The notes below the pieces were generated by a model. That model saw only the letters and a list, made by a program, of their open reading frames with translations. It had not been told where the DNA came from and ran no database searches. Below are positions 1 through 5,110 of a DNA stretch of 5,110 nt, piece by piece (the stretch's first letter is position 1; every line of letters begins with the position of its first letter). The stretch spans positions 1 to 5,110 of the forward strand of contig MFYT01000106.1 in assembly GCA_001789205.1 (NCBI GenBank), written 5' to 3'. This DNA is from Candidatus Raymondbacteria bacterium RIFOXYA2_FULL_49_16 (lineage in GTDB: Bacteria > Fibrobacterota > OXYB2-FULL-49-7 > XYB2-FULL-49-35). The position numbers and the translations under genes were made by a program.

Positions 1-3000
1 ATGGCGCCTGCGTCAGGACCTGTGCCCTGGCTGCGTGAATTGCCCCAGATATCGATTGATGGAGCATAAGCGCTGTTTGCCATGTCAACAGCGCTGTCTG
101 TGTTTGCGGGATAGAGAAAAAGAGAATCAGCCATGACCGTACTCTGGAACACGCTGGCAACAGAATCGCAGTGGCTCTTGGTGAAATACGTCGCGTTCTG
201 GAATGGTCGCGCTGTGGGCGATACCTCGTACACCGTATTATATACCGTGTACGGCCCAGCGCCATAGGGCGAGGTCGCTTTAAAAATCGTGTCGTTCGCG
301 CTGCTGATGACATTGTTCGCGGCAACAAGGTGCGCCATGACGCCAGTCCCGCCAGCATCAGAAATATTCAAAAACTTGCCATCGCAATCATAGGCCGTGT
401 TGTTCACGATATAGTACGCAGAATCGCGCTGCCCCGCGTTACAACAATTATTCTCATTGATCCGTATAGGGTTTTTACCACGGTAAAATATGTTGTTACG
501 GATATACACATCCTTCGAACTGCCTTCGCCAGTACTGGTAATCTGAAACTCGTATATCAACGACCCGCCGGTAATACCGGAATCGTTGAACACGTTCCGC
601 TCAACAATCATGCTGTCTATATGGTTCGAACCGGTCGTAGGCCGGCCAGCGCTAATGCAATAATTGCTCTGTCCGCCACCATTGCCGGTCTGGCTGAATC
701 TAAGGCCCTGGACTGTCATATAACTGCTTATACCAAATATATTCGTATTGGAACCGCTCCCAACAGCCACCCGCGTCAGATGGGGCATCTCTGACACTTT
801 TTTGGCAAAGACCTGGGGCTGAATAATAAGACGCGCTGAGTATGAAGCCTGGACATTGCCAAGACCTATGCCGCCATTGCTGGGAATAACATAGGTGCCA
901 CGCCCTATCTTGACTGTCAGGTTGCCGGTAAGGGCCGATACCCTGCTAATACGCGACATGGCAGTGTCAACACTCCTAAAAGGGTGCAAGGAATCATTAC
1001 ACTCGTTGCACAAATTATCATACCCACTCGCTGAATCGACCCATATAGTGCCGGAAGTGTATGGTGTATTAGTACATGCGGTGATCTCGTCAGCGCCGAT
1101 CTCCCAGCCATTACCAAGCGGCCGGGTGGCACCCTCAATGTCCGAAGTGAACATGCTGCTGAGATTCGCACCGCGGTCACGGGCAATACTGGCCGCGCCA
1201 AGGCGCAAATCGCGCGTTACCGCGGCAGTGTCAATAAATGCTATCTGGGCATACGAGACATTGCTATAATTTCCCGATATAGCGCCAAGTGAATTGTCGC
1301 TGCAAACATTGCTGGTATCTCCTGCGCCTATCGAAGAACCAGAAACAACCACATCAAGAATCCTGTTGCCCCAAAAAATATTGTTTATCACAGAAATAGA
1401 AACATTACCGCCATGTCCATACCCGGTATCACATTTGCTAATAGTGTTATTAAATAAATAAATATAGGTGCCCCAGCCTTTGTAACCGCATTGGAAGCCA
1501 TAAAGAATATTATTGGAGAGGGTGTCATAAGTGCCCCCGCCCGAAAATACAGCATTAGCGGTTGCTGTCCCATCGCGGATAATGCAATTTCTTATTGCCA
1601 CATTACTGCCCATATAAATTCCATATTGACCGCTTAAATTCCGCACATCCAGCCATAGGAGCTTCGCATTGTCGTACACATTCCATCCGCCGGCATTGCA
1701 GTTCATCACCACGCCTGTCCCGGCTTTACCTGTGTGGCGGTCGACAGGGTTTACTGTTATTGTAATAGGATGGCTGACGTTCGTTGTCCAGCCGGAAATA
1801 GCCTGACAAAGAAACTCCGCGCCGTCATTGTATAAAACAGCCACTTCCCTCCAATTGTCCGTTACCAAATTGCGGTTCTGATTTTCAAACGCTGCAAAAG
1901 TACTATATTTGCGAAGAATAGTGTATGCCGCACCCGTGTTTGTAGAATTGGCATTCCGGACAAGCACAAGACGTGTCTCAGAGGTCACTGAATCAATAAT
2001 ATATCCTTTGCCGCACGCTGCAATGTAAATACTGTCACCCTGACCCCGGTTATTTGTCACCCAAGCGGTACCGGAACCTGTCACAACCTTAGATCCAGCT
2101 GTCGTTGAAACAGTCCCTGTGGAATAATTCACCCTGCTGCCGACTGATTCATATCGGTTGGGAACCGCGACGTACACTTCCTTGTGTCCCACGTCTGTCA
2201 CAGTACCTGTCTTGGTGTACGCAGTGCTGATACTGTCCGTGTACAGCCCAATTCTGAGCGAATCATTATGATACAACGATGGAAAATCCGCACTTAATAT
2301 ATAGTTTGTCACCCCGGTGGTATTGAAACTGGTTGAAAAGACAATGCTGCCCGTCGAGGTACTGATGGCTACAACTCCGCCGCCACCAACCGAGGACTCG
2401 CCAGCATCATGGATGCCGTCGTTGTCCGCATCGACATACAAGTTACAATTTGAAATATCATTCTGTACAATGCCACGAATATTCCACAGTCTGAAGGCAA
2501 GGCGGGCAACAGATGCGGTTCCGGAGGTGGCGGTCAGCTTGAACCTGTAAATAACAGTGTCAAGCTGCTTGCCCGCCTGATTAAAAGCGTCCGATACCTG
2601 TCCGGCTGTATTGGCGGCGAGAATCAAGGTGTTGAAGGGATATTCGTACGCGCCAATATCCCAACTGCTGTTGGTGGGGCGGGTTATGTCCACAATGTCA
2701 TCGCTGAACGGGTAGGTGGCAATGCCGGAAAGGGTGGTGCCTGCGTCAATGGCCGGCGCATCATTGACATTCAACTGCCAGTTGTCGTTGGTGGAATCCC
2801 AGAACTGCAATGTGATGCTGATCTGGTTTGCGCTGTCTGTCCCACCGAATTTCTTTACCGAGGTCTCAAGAATTGAGGTATACATGCTCAGTCCGCTGCC
2901 TGCGCCACTCACCGTATCAGCATCATTCGTATTGTTCTGGAATATGGAATTACGTACAACAATGGGATTGCCTGTTGTTCGACAGTAGACACCGGTACCG

Positions 3001-4844
3001 CAATTAATTATTGTGCTGTTAAAAACATAGTCGCCGGAACCGAATCCTTCAGAACCGCCATAGACGCCATATGTTGCGCAATCATAAATAATGGTGTTTA
3101 ATGTATAAACAAAGCCATCATGCCTATAGTGGGCAACGCCTCTATTGAACCCGGTAATAATACAATTTTTAATAAGGGCGATTGCAAGGTCGGTATATAC
3201 TCCATCCCCAGCAGCGCCAGGCCCCTTAATGACCAGGCCTTCAATACGGGTATAGTCGTTATTGACAGAAACGCTGATGCCATTGCCTGATGAGATGAGC
3301 AGTTGATAGCCGGAGCTTATGGTGCCATTATGCCGCTGGGACTGGTTGCATTCGGTGGAGATATTTGCGGGAGTGAACACCCTTAAATAGTACATTGAGT
3401 CAGATTTAACTACCGGAGACCATTGACCGAATGCACCAATAGCCACCGAGCCTCCATTATCATTGCCATCGGCATAACAGGCGACATTGACCTGCCACTT
3501 ATTGGTCACCAGATTTACCGGGTAGGTTTGGTTCAAATGGGTGGAATTAATAATGCCGCAAGTATTACCGTTCACGGCAGCATTCAGCGAATTAAACGCG
3601 CGCTTGATAAAGACCACTTTGCGGCTGGAAATGTTTGTGGGGCTTGGACCTGCAGGCGAGGAAACAGTCCATACAGTGGTCGAGGTTTTTTGCTTGAGAT
3701 AAAAGACCCAGCCATTATCGAGGGTAACCATGTCGCCTGCGCCAATATTGCCGGTTTGGGCAGTTGAAAAGGTAGCAATGCCGTTAGAAACAGACACAGT
3801 GGGAGTGCCAGTCATAAGATTGGACGTTGAGGTGCCCACGGAATAATACACACTGCACGGATCTGATCTGGTCAGTGTGTCGTATTGGTATTGCGGAAAA
3901 TAGTTCATGGGAAGCATTGACGTTGCATAATTAGTAATGGCAAAATTCGCATCAGCGGGATTCGCAGGGGCTGTACCATCGTCCCAAAAACAATATTCCG
4001 CGTTTTGTCCGCCGGCAAGCAAAAAATTGAGGTGCTGGGCATTGTTTGCTGCGGTATTGCCGATAAAATCGCATTGCCCTGCTGCTGAACCGCTATGTAT
4101 CCACCAACTACTTCCATTGCCGCTGTTATTGCCAATACCAGCGCCTCTATCGCCTGCACGGTTGTTTATAAATTTACACCGATAAACATATCCCACCGTG
4201 ACCGGCCCGCAACACCCATATTCATGTACCGCGCCAGCCACCCCACTCGCATAGCAATTCTCAAACACGGTGTTTGTTATGGTAAGTGTATCTGATAAAG
4301 TGGAGGCATGGTATATGGCCCCGCCATCGCCGCTTTTTGCTGAACAAGCATAGAAAAAACAGGTATCAATACGCCACTGATTCAGGAAATAATACGCATC
4401 CATGGCCCCGCCTCTGGTTGAAGAGACACAGTTCTGGAAGGTCATGTTGGAAAAATTGATATGCCTATTGCCAGCAGGACTTCCACCACCACGAATGGCT
4501 GACGCGCTTGTGTTCTGTATCGTAAAATTCATAAAATAAATTGAGTCGCAACCGTCATATACGTTAAAAGCCCTGCTTGTATTTGTGCAGTTCATGATAA
4601 CGCCCTTCATGGATTCGCCCTTTATCACAACGCCTGTCTTGGCCGAGACGGAAAGATTGTTTTCGCTGTAGGTCCCGTTGTGGATATACACTGTATCGCC
4701 GTTTACGGTTGCGGCAATACCGGCGGCAATAGTTGTGTATGTCTGGCCTGAGCCAACATGGCGGGTAGTTGCGCTTCCAACAGCGAAAATCGATAAAATA
4801 AAACCCATGACCAGGGCAAAGTTTCTCATTACGGTCTTTGGCAT
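1..4844 (-). CDS. Giant secreted multi-domain beta-helix surface protein, C-terminus beyond the window
   Basis: I recognise the fold class but not a named gene. I checked the frame codon by codon: 1,614 codons run without a stop from the ATG at 4844 to the left edge. Domains by residue: signal peptide about 1-25; beta-helix 1 about 28-310, opening with GDTVYIHNGTY and carrying FxxN/GGA repeats; module 1 about 332-510; beta-helix 2 about 505-735, ending AIDAG (698-702) and RPTNSSWDIGAYEY (722-735); beta-sandwich 738-895 with the Asp loop DADNDGIHDAGE (805-816); module 2 about 905-1040; beta-helix 3 about 1041-1253, ending WEIGADE; beta-helix 4 from about 1266, opening with VKIGRGTY (1311-1318). 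Families with this architecture (right-handed beta-helix, choice-of-anchor Q, DUF1565-like) are exported and often surface-bound adhesins or polysaccharide-active proteins. No catalytic residues could be assigned, so adhesion versus carbohydrate binding or cleavage is open. A C-terminal anchor or sorting domain probably lies outside the window. Confidence 0.95.
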   Translation of the reverse strand, partial: MPKTVMRNFALVMGFILSIFAVGSATTRHVGSGQTYTTIAAGIAATVNGDTVYIHNGTYSENNLSVSAKTGVVIKGESMKGVIMNCTNTSRAFNVYDGCDSIYFMNFTIQNTSASAIRGGGSPAGNRHINFSNMTFQNCVSSTRGGAMDAYYFLNQWRIDTCFFYACSAKSGDGGAIYHASTLSDTLTITNTVFENCYASGVAGAVHEYGCCGPVTVGYVYRCKFINNRAGDRGAGIGNNSGNGSSWWIHSGSAAGQCDFIGNTAANNAQHLNFLLAGGQNAEYCFWDDGTAPANPADANFAITNYATSMLPMNYFPQYQYDTLTRSDPCSVYYSVGTSTSNLMTGTPTVSVSNGIATFSTAQTGNIGAGDMVTLDNGWVFYLKQKTSTTVWTVSSPAGPSPTNISSRKVVFIKRAFNSLNAAVNGNTCGIINSTHLNQTYPVNLVTNKWQVNVACYADGNDNGGSVAIGAFGQWSPVVKSDSMYYLRVFTPANISTECNQSQRHNGTISSGYQLLISSGNGISVSVNNDYTRIEGLVIKGPGAAGDGVYTDLAIALIKNCIITGFNRGVAHYRHDGFVYTLNTIIYDCATYGVYGGSEGFGSGDYVFNSTIINCGTGVYCRTTGNPIVVRNSIFQNNTNDADTVSGAGSGLSMYTSILETSVKKFGGTDSANQISITLQFWDSTNDNWQLNVNDAPAIDAGTTLSGIATYPFSDDIVDITRPTNSSWDIGAYEYPFNTLILAANTAGQVSDAFNQAGKQLDTVIYRFKLTATSGTASVARLAFRLWNIRGIVQNDISNCNLYVDADNDGIHDAGESSVGGGGVVAISTSTGSIVFSTSFNTTGVTNYILSADFPSLYHNDSLRIGLYTDSISTAYTKTGTVTDVGHKEVYVAVPNRYESVGSRVNYSTGTVSTTAGSKVVTGSGTAWVTNNRGQGDSIYIAACGKGYIIDSVTSETRLVLVRNANSTNTGAAYTILRKYSTFAAFENQNRNLVTDNWREVAVLYNDGAEFLCQAISGWTTNVSHPITITVNPVDRHTGKAGTGVVMNCNAGGWNVYDNAKLLWLDVRNLSGQYGIYMGSNVAIRNCIIRDGTATANAVFSGGGTYDTLSNNILYGFQCGYKGWGTYIYLFNNTISKCDTGYGHGGNVSISVINNIFWGNRILDVVVSGSSIGAGDTSNVCSDNSLGAISGNYSNVSYAQIAFIDTAAVTRDLRLGAASIARDRGANLSSMFTSDIEGATRPLGNGWEIGADEITACTNTPYTSGTIWVDSASGYDNLCNECNDSLHPFRSVDTAMSRISRVSALTGNLTVKIGRGTYVIPSNGGIGLGNVQASYSARLIIQPQVFAKKVSEMPHLTRVAVGSGSNTNIFGISSYMTVQGLRFSQTGNGGGQSNYCISAGRPTTGSNHIDSMIVERNVFNDSGITGGSLIYEFQITSTGEGSSKDVYIRNNIFYRGKNPIRINENNCCNAGQRDSAYYIVNNTAYDCDGKFLNISDAGGTGVMAHLVAANNVISSANDTIFKATSPYGAGPYTVYNTVYEVSPTARPFQNATYFTKSHCDSVASVFQSTVMADSLFLYPANTDSAVDMANSAYAPSIDIWGNSRSQGTGPDAGA
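3..1049 (-). other. Beta-helix 4, running to the window edge
   Basis: Residues about 1266-1614. The opening (TIWVDSASGYDN, a CNEC pair, HPFRSVDTAMSRIS, LTVKIGRGTY) matches the type of N-terminal cap seen in beta-helix 1 (VGSGQTYTTI...GDTVYIHNGTY). Coils follow: VERNVFNDSG, VYIRNNIFYRG, YYIVNNTAYDCD and LVAANNVISS. The last visible residues, DIWGNSRSQGTGPDAGA (1598-1614), are a variant of the closing motifs of helices 2 and 3, so this domain appears nearly complete. What follows lies outside the window. Confidence 0.75.
1086..1724 (-). other. Beta-helix 3 with choice-of-anchor-Q-like closing motif
   Basis: Residues about 1041-1253. Coils read LLWLDVRNLSG, VAIRNCIIRDG, YDTLSNNILYGF, YLFNNTISKCD and ISVINNIFWGN. 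It ends LRLGAASIARDRGAN (1213-1227) and DIEGATRPLGNGWEIGADE, a close parallel to the end of beta-helix 2. Cys-Asp and Asn-Asn turns recur once per coil. Confidence 0.75.
1725..2132 (-). repeat. Module 2 (second copy of the duplicated pre-helix module)
   Basis: Residues about 905-1040. It starts VNYSTGT (905), has a G-Q-GD turn (RGQGDSIYIA), an S-E-T-R-L-V-L strand, a YSTFAAFEN segment, NLVTDNWREVAVLYNDG (992-1008), an ITITV strand, and ends RHTGK (1035-1039) and GTGVVM just before beta-helix 3. The same landmarks occur in the same order in module 1, so this is an internal duplication at protein level, with clear divergence and a shorter middle. Function unknown. Confidence 0.65.
2160..2633 (-). 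other. Beta-sandwich domain with Asp-rich probable calcium loop
   Basis: Residues 738-895 start TLILAANTAGQVSDAF and contain FKLTATSG, FRLWNIRGI and then CNLYVDADNDGIHDAGES. DADNDGIHDAGE (805-816) has the alternating Asp/Asn/Gly spacing of calcium-binding loops such as EF-hand-like dockerin or thrombospondin type 3 loops. Glycine-rich GGGGVVAIS and a run of beta strands follow (IVFSTSF, YILSADF, SLRIGLY). It separates the two module-plus-helix units and may stiffen the protein in a calcium-dependent way (inference). Confidence 0.6.
2640..3332 (-). other. Beta-helix 2 with choice-of-anchor-Q-like closing motif
   Basis: Residues about 505-735. Short strands alternate with Asn/Cys turns (IEGLVIKG, IKNCIITGF, IIYDCATYGVYGG, STIINCGTGVY, VVRNSIFQNN), the pattern of right-handed parallel beta-helix coils. 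It ends with APAIDAG (696-702) and DITRPTNSSWDIGAYEY (719-735). That combination is the hallmark seen at the end of choice-of-anchor-Q and related beta-helix domains. No pectate-lyase or other catalytic triad was recognised. Confidence 0.75.
3315..3851 (-). repeat. Module 1 (first copy of the duplicated pre-helix module)
   Basis: Residues about 332-510. It starts VYYSVGT (332), has a G-x-GD turn (GAGDMVTLDNG), a K-T-S-T-T-V-W strand, FNSLNAAV, NLVTNKWQVNVACYADG (444-460), an R-V-F-T-P strand, and ends RHNG (504-507) just before beta-helix 2. It looks like an all-beta cap or binding module that precedes a beta-helix. I know similar stretches from large beta-helix proteins of uncultured bacteria but cannot name a family. 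A diverged second copy lies at residues 905-1040. Confidence 0.65.
4053..4445 (-). repeat. Pmp-like FxxN / GGA[I/V/M] protein repeats in beta-helix 1
   Basis: Residues 134-264 alternate two short motifs. The F-motifs are FQNC (136), FFYAC (163), FENC (194), FINN (225) and FIGN (260), spaced about 28-35 residues. The glycine motifs are RGGAM (144), DGGAIY (173), VAGAVH (202) and DRGAGI (232), spaced 29-30 residues. This is the signature known from chlamydial polymorphic membrane proteins and related bacterial beta-helix adhesins: each pair corresponds to coils of a right-handed beta-helix on the cell surface. No chlamydial origin is implied. The motifs fade after about residue 264. Confidence 0.75.
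4770..4844 (-). other. Sec signal peptide of the giant protein
   Basis: Residues 1-25. Lys3 and Arg7 form the basic n-region, FALVMGFILSIFAV (9-22) is the hydrophobic core, and GSA before TT gives a plausible signal peptidase I site after Ala25. The mature protein starts directly with the first beta-helix cap (RHVGSGQTYTTI). No lipobox cysteine is present at the cleavage site, so a lipoprotein is unlikely. Confidence 0.85.
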
Positions 4845-4967
4845 AATCAGTATCTCCCTATGAGTATACATAAATTAATTACAATTAAAGATTGGGGTGC
4901 GAGGCCTTTTGATAACCTAGTTCCCCTCCCCTGCTTACTACCCGCTACCTGCTTGCTTGGCTACCCG
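4845..4967 (-). other. Intergenic gap between two exported-protein genes
   Basis: Read on the minus strand, this 123-base gap begins with G-rich repeats (4930-4967). An A/T-rich stretch (about 4871-4890) follows, and then the ribosome binding site of the giant gene. The A/T-rich part is the most likely promoter area, but I see no convincing -35/-10 pair. I also see no stem-loop followed by a T run, so an intrinsic terminator for the upstream gene is not supported. The two genes could be co-transcribed or separately promoted. Confidence 0.5.
4853..4858 (-). promoter_or_regulatory. Ribosome binding site of the giant beta-helix gene
   Basis: The minus strand reads GGGAGA, 8 bases before the ATG at 4844, a normal Shine-Dalgarno match and spacing. 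It decides the start: the frame is open to another ATG at 4871 (in-frame TAA at 4877-4875), and there is an internal ATG at 4829, but neither has a comparable site. The 4844 start also puts a basic n-region directly before the hydrophobic core of the signal peptide. Confidence 0.8.
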
Positions 4968-4970
4968 CTA
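4930..4970. repeat. Imperfect tandem repeat overlapping the upstream stop codon
   Basis: Two copies on the plus strand: CCTGCTT-A-CTACCCGCTA at 4930-4947 and CCTGCTT-GCTTGG-CTACCCGCTA at 4948-4970. The 7-base and 10-base arms are identical and only the middle differs. The last three bases (4968-4970) are the TAG stop of the upstream gene on the minus strand. It can also be read as decayed 7-base units (TACCCGC / TACCTGC). Purpose unknown; a small replication-slippage repeat is the simplest explanation. Confidence 0.7.
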
Positions 4971-5110
4971 TTTGAGCATCATCATTTTCTTGGTTTGCAC
5001 AAACCGTTCTTTGCCGCTGTCGTCGGTGATTGCCAGCCGGTATATGTACAGGCCTGATGCCACGTCCTTGTTGAAGCCATCCCTGCCAGACCACAGAACA
5101 CGGTAGTACC
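4968..5110 (-). CDS. C-terminal tail of an exported protein, FlgD Ig-like / T9SS-type sorting domain (5' end outside window)
   Basis: Only the last 46 codons are present, ending in TAG at 4970-4968; the gene enters from the right edge with two bases of a split codon. The visible peptide has the typical order of a FlgD-type Ig-like C-terminal domain: WSGRDGFNKDVASGLYIYRL (residues 6-25 of the fragment), a DDSGK turn, then a Lys-rich ending, QTKKMMMLK. Known relatives read roughly W-x-G-x-D-x-x-G-x-x-V-x-SG-x-Y-x-Y-x-L followed by a KK-M-hydrophobic end. They sit at the extreme C-terminus of large exported proteins, where they act as a sorting or anchoring tail. The rest of the protein, and so its function, cannot be seen. 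It lies in the same orientation as the giant gene, 123 bases upstream. The assignment rests on a short motif. Confidence 0.8.
   Translation of the reverse strand, partial: YYRVLWSGRDGFNKDVASGLYIYRLAITDDSGKERFVQTKKMMMLK

Follow-up and report, generated by a model that had tools for sequence, protein, structure and literature searches.

A giant modular protein with repeated beta-helix units and tail-fibre-like domains, probably a secreted surface protein of a paralogous family in a Fibrobacterota genome

The window analysed here, a 5,110-bp stretch that makes up the whole contig C106 of its genome, encodes on the minus strand most of what we consider quite probably a giant modular secreted surface protein, a member of a lineage-expanded family whose units were duplicated and reshuffled by homologous recombination. 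The genome belongs to the phylum Fibrobacterota (its RecA is 73% identical to that of Fibrobacter, and G001, a genome classed in the same phylum, shares an identical RecA with an uncultured Fibrobacter) and contains at least ten giant genes of 851 to 4,908 aa, about a dozen overall, that are built from the same blocks. The likely role, as far as can be read from the sequence, would be that of a type IX-exported surface beta-helix adhesin or carbohydrate-contacting scaffold.

Results

Open frame, start and upstream gene

The minus strand holds 1,614 codons without a stop (4844-3), running off the contig end, as the earlier note on this DNA had described, and its view of the other open reading frames as shadows was equally borne out, with all listed frames of at least 100 aa (114-207 aa) overlapping the long one. 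In 300 shuffled versions of the window the longest open stretch was 269 codons. The frame is coding, with paralogues present and a dN/dS of about 0.1. Counted from ATG 4871 it would have 1,623 codons; ATG 4844 appears to be the better start, because the start of the C109 paralogue (MSKTAMSNF..) aligns with MPKTVMRNF.., and residues are numbered here from the methionine encoded by ATG 4844. The features are collected in Table 1.

On the same strand, the last 46 aa of an upstream gene lie in the window (stop at 4968-4970). This tail gives weak partial matches to CHU_C and to the PorU C-terminus, and resembles the full-length tail of paralogue C57, which passes TIGR04183. The end of this gene (window 4965-4998, 34 bp) is 97% identical to G000:C22:14047-14080.

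Table 1. Predicted features of the window, in the order of transcription.
Feature	Position	Strand	Basis or remark
C-terminal end of upstream gene, T9SS/FlgD-like sorting-domain style, ..DVASGLYIYRLAITDDSGKERFVQTKKMMMLK	4971..5108	-	sequence
Start codon ATG 4844 and putative signal peptide MPKTVMRNFALVMGFILSIFAVGSA	4770..4844	-	hydrophobic leader by eye
Cap A and beta-helix 1, residues 31-328	3861..4754	-	3 genome copies, 87-88% identical
Module 1 (type B), tail-fibre-like small domain, residues 329-420	3585..3860	-	profile match, alignment
Beta-helix 2	2640..3584	-	ends in choice-of-anchor-Q motif 2640-2762, ..TRPTNSSWDIGAYEYP
Sandwich-like domain, residues 740-882, contains DADNDGIHDAGE	2199..2627	-	11 genome copies
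Module 2 (type E), tail-fibre-like N-terminal domain, residues 898-985	1890..2153	-	phage homology
Beta-helix 3	1071..1889	-	ends in choice-of-anchor-Q motif 1086-1229, ..TRPLGNGWEIGADE
Tract 93% identical to C109	980..1272	-	spans unit 3/cap D junction
Cap D and beta-helix 4	3..1070	-	choice-of-anchor-Q motif 3-95 cut by contig end

Domain layout

Independent profiles reproduced the order of parts proposed earlier, that is, cap and helix 1, module 1 and helix 2, sandwich, module 2 and helix 3, cap and helix 4; what did not hold is the idea of a special, nearly mirror-symmetric design, the layout being one permutation among at least ten giants of the genome. The symmetry is only apparent because no homology connects cap A with cap D (profiles of cap/helix 1 and cap/helix 4 reach an hhalign probability of 0.3%), and helices 2 and 3 run in parallel, as direct copies of a single unit. 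The duplication of a module had been recognised correctly and incompletely, since it is the complete unit that is duplicated: units 2 and 3, with 30% identity from end to end, show homology over their full length, helix and helix end included, and each consists of a domain of about 75 aa, a beta-helix and a choice-of-anchor-Q end. Module 1 is matched by the profiles of both modules B and E.

The sandwich-like domain has 11 copies in this genome by profile search, no copy at the profile threshold in any of 166 other genomes of the phylum, and no match in Pfam, PDB or phages; the beta-sandwich fold proposed for it in the earlier note is putative.

The window ends at ..DIWGNSRSQGTGPDAGA, four profile positions before the end of the choice-of-anchor-Q motif. 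In both complete cap D units (C53 and C96) the end reads ..DIWGN.R.Q..GPDAGAVE.. and a sandwich follows immediately, because of which the gene very probably continues beyond the contig end, where the next module would most likely be another sandwich.

Paralogue family

A census of 13 contigs of this genome, taken with profiles derived from parts of the window, gave 34 module units (types B and E), 11 sandwiches, five cap D and three cap A units, the best paralogues of the window being 47-78% identical to it. The blocks follow each other in different orders: A-B-sandwich-E-D in the window, B-B-sandwich-E-D in C109, A-B-B-D-sandwich-E-B-B-sandwich-E-D in C53, E-E-sandwich-(C25 peptidase, FG-GAP)-B in C23, B-E-sandwich-(C25 peptidase, FG-GAP)-B in C75, (C13-like, FG-GAP)-E-E-T9SS tail in C57, and E-B-B-B-sandwich-..-T9SS tail in C69. 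C25 peptidase together with FG-GAP is present in the giants C23, C65 and C75; the C25 (gingipain-type) domain stands directly after the sandwich in L016 (C23) and L018 (C75), and is N-terminal in L021 (C65).

Several further observations concern single members. The 4,908-aa frame of C96 (L014:71-14794) carries seven CHB_HEX_C_1, six Fn3_assoc and two glucodextranase-B stretches, which precede the beta-helix units and are interspersed with them. Upstream of the C53 giant lies a gene (L012:1-784) that ends in a T9SS-like manner and is followed by a short intergenic repeat, this tail suggesting tandem clusters of exported giants. The left end of C57 (L019:1-296) and a stretch of C65 (L021:6809-7104) are 96% identical over 296 bp, with a 97-bp exact run, and encode the end of a helix-3-like unit.

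Selection and recombination

In cap A pairs dN/dS was 0.07-0.11, and these are therefore maintained genes; across the closest pairs the range was 0.07-0.14. DNA identity shifts abruptly within units. Over its first 90 codons window unit 2 matches C53_B1 at 79-90%, and beyond them at 33-57%; for C109_B2 against C53_B1 the values are 52-66% and then 73-89% up to the final blocks. Uneven constraint is unable to produce both patterns. In the trees, module 1 of the window groups with C53_B1 and C89_B1 (100/99) and helix 2 with C53_B2 (100/100). AU tests reject each shared grouping with p-values (5.7e-44, 5.3e-4 and 5.5e-85) that are optimistic, as the groupings were chosen after viewing the trees; the corresponding log-likelihood gaps (209, 37 and 57) are large. 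Since the parts of a unit give strongly discordant trees (AU p 5e-4 or less), units have been exchanged between the giant genes by recombination.

At 1039-1143, where unit 3 meets cap D, an exact run of 105 bp is common to the window and C109, and the tract around it (Table 1) may be either the product of recent gene conversion or recombination, or the sole place open to assembly cross-over. Outside this tract, the longest exact match between the window and any paralogue is 41 bp. It seems very unlikely that the mosaic pattern and the layout as a whole are assembly chimeras between near-identical repeats. Such chimeras would be in line with the exact run and with the enrichment of contig ends in the giant family, where 12-13 of the 224 ends lie and 3.9 would be expected (P 2e-4 to 6e-4), an enrichment that is itself expected for repeats; however, at the breakpoint between module 1 and helix 2 a match of 41 bp is too short for an ordinary short-read cross-over, the unit 3/cap D junction has the identical module order in C53 and C109, and purifying selection keeps the units.

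Tail-fibre-like small domain

Each B or E unit is headed by a small domain with homology to the domain found at the N-terminus of phage tail fibres. The two best PDB matches of the module profile are the N-termini of a distal tail protein (23gd, E 0.0028) and of an F2-pyocin side fibre (25ve, E 0.012), and the tblastn matches of the domain are phage tail-fibre N-termini (E 1e-4 to 4e-4). A pattern search with the module profile over genome and viral contigs gave no relatives; profile and tblastn searches found some. Among the phage proteins that share the domain are ‘particle-associated lyases’, and the fibre of Pseudomonas phage ZY21 carries it at the N-terminus, with a later part that looks beta-helical by eye. 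A Rhodoplanes prophage tail protein, WP_129608065.1, shares 51% identity with module 2 (E 3.7e-13; forward match of the small domain E 2e-6) and is plasmid-encoded just downstream of a TipJ-type tail gene. Used as a reverse query, the Rhodoplanes protein found 16 copies in this genome, up to 51% identical, and none in the genome outside the giants. A phage-type tail protein of another Fibrobacterota genome, L053 (G031:C106), has the same small domain internally.

With phage tail fibres and F-type pyocin side fibres the domain shares TGT.s...gs..VTG.GT.W...GD.i...Y.I..V.S.T.L.L...tGa.Y.I over about 70 residues. Its place is different: in phages it occurs once, at the start of the fibre, whereas in the giants it is internal and repeated before many helices of one predicted-secreted chain, and the window has no tail gene. 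These differences bear on the idea of a bacteriophage or tailocin fibre relic, in which the tail-fibre-like domains would mark a captured phage structural gene. The identity of module 2 to the Rhodoplanes protein and its resemblance to phage fibre N-termini, as in ZY21, would agree with such an origin, yet it is made extremely unlikely by a signal peptide (by eye), a T9SS-type genome, choice-of-anchor-Q ends and paralogues with C25 peptidases, together with the confinement of the domain to the giants, several copies to a protein. For a secreted surface protein, we suppose that the small domain most likely would serve as an N-terminal cap or as an adaptor between rods.

Beta-helices and their ends

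Of the four beta-helices claimed in the earlier note, helices 1-3 found support through Pfam Beta_helix matches of homologues, and helix 4 is without such support. None of the four helices of the window matches Pfam Beta_helix (PF13229) by itself. Cap A aligns with other Fibrobacterota proteins that pass it at 1e-16 to 9e-24, these relatives being all at the same-phylum level, with none closer among those searched, and the paralogues C53 (6.8e-20), C23 (1.7e-19), C57 (3.7e-18) and C96 (1.6e-22) match as well, the homologue of unit 2 in C53 and that of unit 3 in C23 among the passing parts. Coil motifs of helix 2 (NCII/NTII/NSTI/NSIF) are spaced 23-26 aa, and the coil spacing of helix 3 is 22-24 aa; because a simple hydrophobic autocorrelation detected no coil periodicity (p 0.19 or more), the evidence for coils consists of motif spacing by eye and of homology. 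Contents of N and G of 9-13% in the helix regions are compatible with beta-helices and no proof of them, and AlphaFold2 gave a pLDDT of about 31 in two runs, both with inadequate alignments (residues 735-1614 alone; unit 3 aligned with unit 2). The reading of the window helices as beta-helices is thus supported by homology rather than by a structural model, and no experimentally characterised homologue covers them.

The whole protein scores 56.7 bits in three stretches against NF041518 (choice-of-anchor Q; curated cut-off 25). The end of helix 2 reaches 26.0 bits and that of helix 3 alone 24.7 bits, while the end of helix 4 covers positions 24-54 of the 58 in the profile. Pfam and PHROGs gave almost no matches on the whole window protein. 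Matches to NifT (E 0.02-0.2) and to immunoglobulin-type and coronin PDB entries were taken as chance.

Discussion

Export and proposed role

The genome is T9SS-positive: it encodes SprA (SprA_N, E 7.2e-23) and, within 5.4 Mb, at least 150 type A T9SS sorting domains, which points to a large exported proteome. The paralogues end in two ways. C57, C69 and C90 end in a T9SS sorting domain above the cut-off, and C23, C75 and C96 stop just past the last helix without a sorting domain. The latter stops lie at L016:16053 (..IGGDEK), L018:4130 (..IGVDEL) and L014:71 (..DIGADEKR), respectively, and in the frames just downstream of them (for C96, 70 bases) no T9SS tail was seen.

To judge by the family, the protein would be exported by Sec through its putative signal peptide and then by the type IX route, and would be displayed on the cell surface as a chain of stiff beta-helix rods. 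Going by fold class only, the helix faces may bind polysaccharide or another surface, cleavage being less likely. As paralogues add C25 or C13-like peptidases and FG-GAP domains, the helix array might act as a targeting or adhesive arm able to carry an enzyme.

A lyase role is the main rival to the adhesin reading. Many lyases have the right-handed beta-helix fold, and Fibrobacterota degrade polysaccharides. A secreted polysaccharide-degrading array, with at least one beta-helix lyase or hydrolase and with the other helices as binding or spacing units, would be in accordance with both, as well as with the small domain shared with the phage ‘particle-associated lyases’. It nevertheless seems unlikely to us: the sole PDB lead for cap D and helix 4, a family 6 polysaccharide lyase (PL6), has an E of 0.95 and is not significant, no Pfam or NCBIfam lyase or hydrolase family is matched, and neither ligand or catalytic residues nor a catalytic motif conserved among the copies was found. 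Cellulases of F. succinogenes have T9SS-type tails and are proposed T9SS cargo (PMC6851124), which would count for the enzyme array, and because of which a carbohydrate role would suit the phylum.

Relation to known systems

Like the choice-of-anchor Q proteins (NF041518), the window protein closes its beta-helices, at three stretches, with the motif D..G..RP....DIGA.E. This motif is usually single and near the C-terminus, while in the giants it is internal and repeated at several helix ends, each followed by another module. With the T9SS cargo of the Fibrobacteres-Chlorobi-Bacteroidetes the genome shares SprA and the sorting domains, including the tails of C57, C69 and C90; in difference to such cargo, the window frame leaves the contig before any tail, and part of the paralogues have no such ending. 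Other Fibrobacterota (G052-G054, family f10) share the small domain, cap and helix unit, and in G053 and G054 a DIGA.E-type helix end was read as in the giants, but their matches are weaker and far fewer per genome, some being to the cap only, and they are followed by Ig-like domains with no sandwich.

Giant beta-solenoid surface proteins with intragenic recombination are already known. In Apilactobacillus kunkeei, Giant1-5 comprise several genes of 3,000-8,000 aa per genome, with predicted beta-solenoids and intragenic recombination (PMC12863079). Compared by description only, the present family is alike in having several giant genes, a beta-solenoid or beta-helix architecture and recombination. 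It differs in that A. kunkeei is Gram-positive with the beta-solenoid at the N-terminal end, and in that recombination there is described among positional homologues across strains, whereas here units are shuffled among the paralogues of one genome. A limited search of open-licence papers gave no account of a secreted chain that repeats a phage-fibre-type capping domain, of within-genome shuffling at the junction of capping domain and helix, or of a sandwich domain not found elsewhere in its phylum.

Conclusions

Short-read assemblies routinely break or miss giant surface proteins, and the present case shows the reason, an accumulation of contig ends within such genes. One concrete route by which giants evolve is seen here in the recombination break that separates a phage-fibre-type cap from its beta-helix, and the family offers a testable example of surface-protein building blocks common to phages and bacteria. 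We regard as doubtful, at present, the further idea that at least 34 units of tail-fibre domain and beta-helix have kept swapping by homologous recombination among about a dozen giant surface genes, with the capping domain as the swap point. If true, the repertoire of swapped units would constitute a combinatorial surface-variation system in a polysaccharide-degrading phylum.
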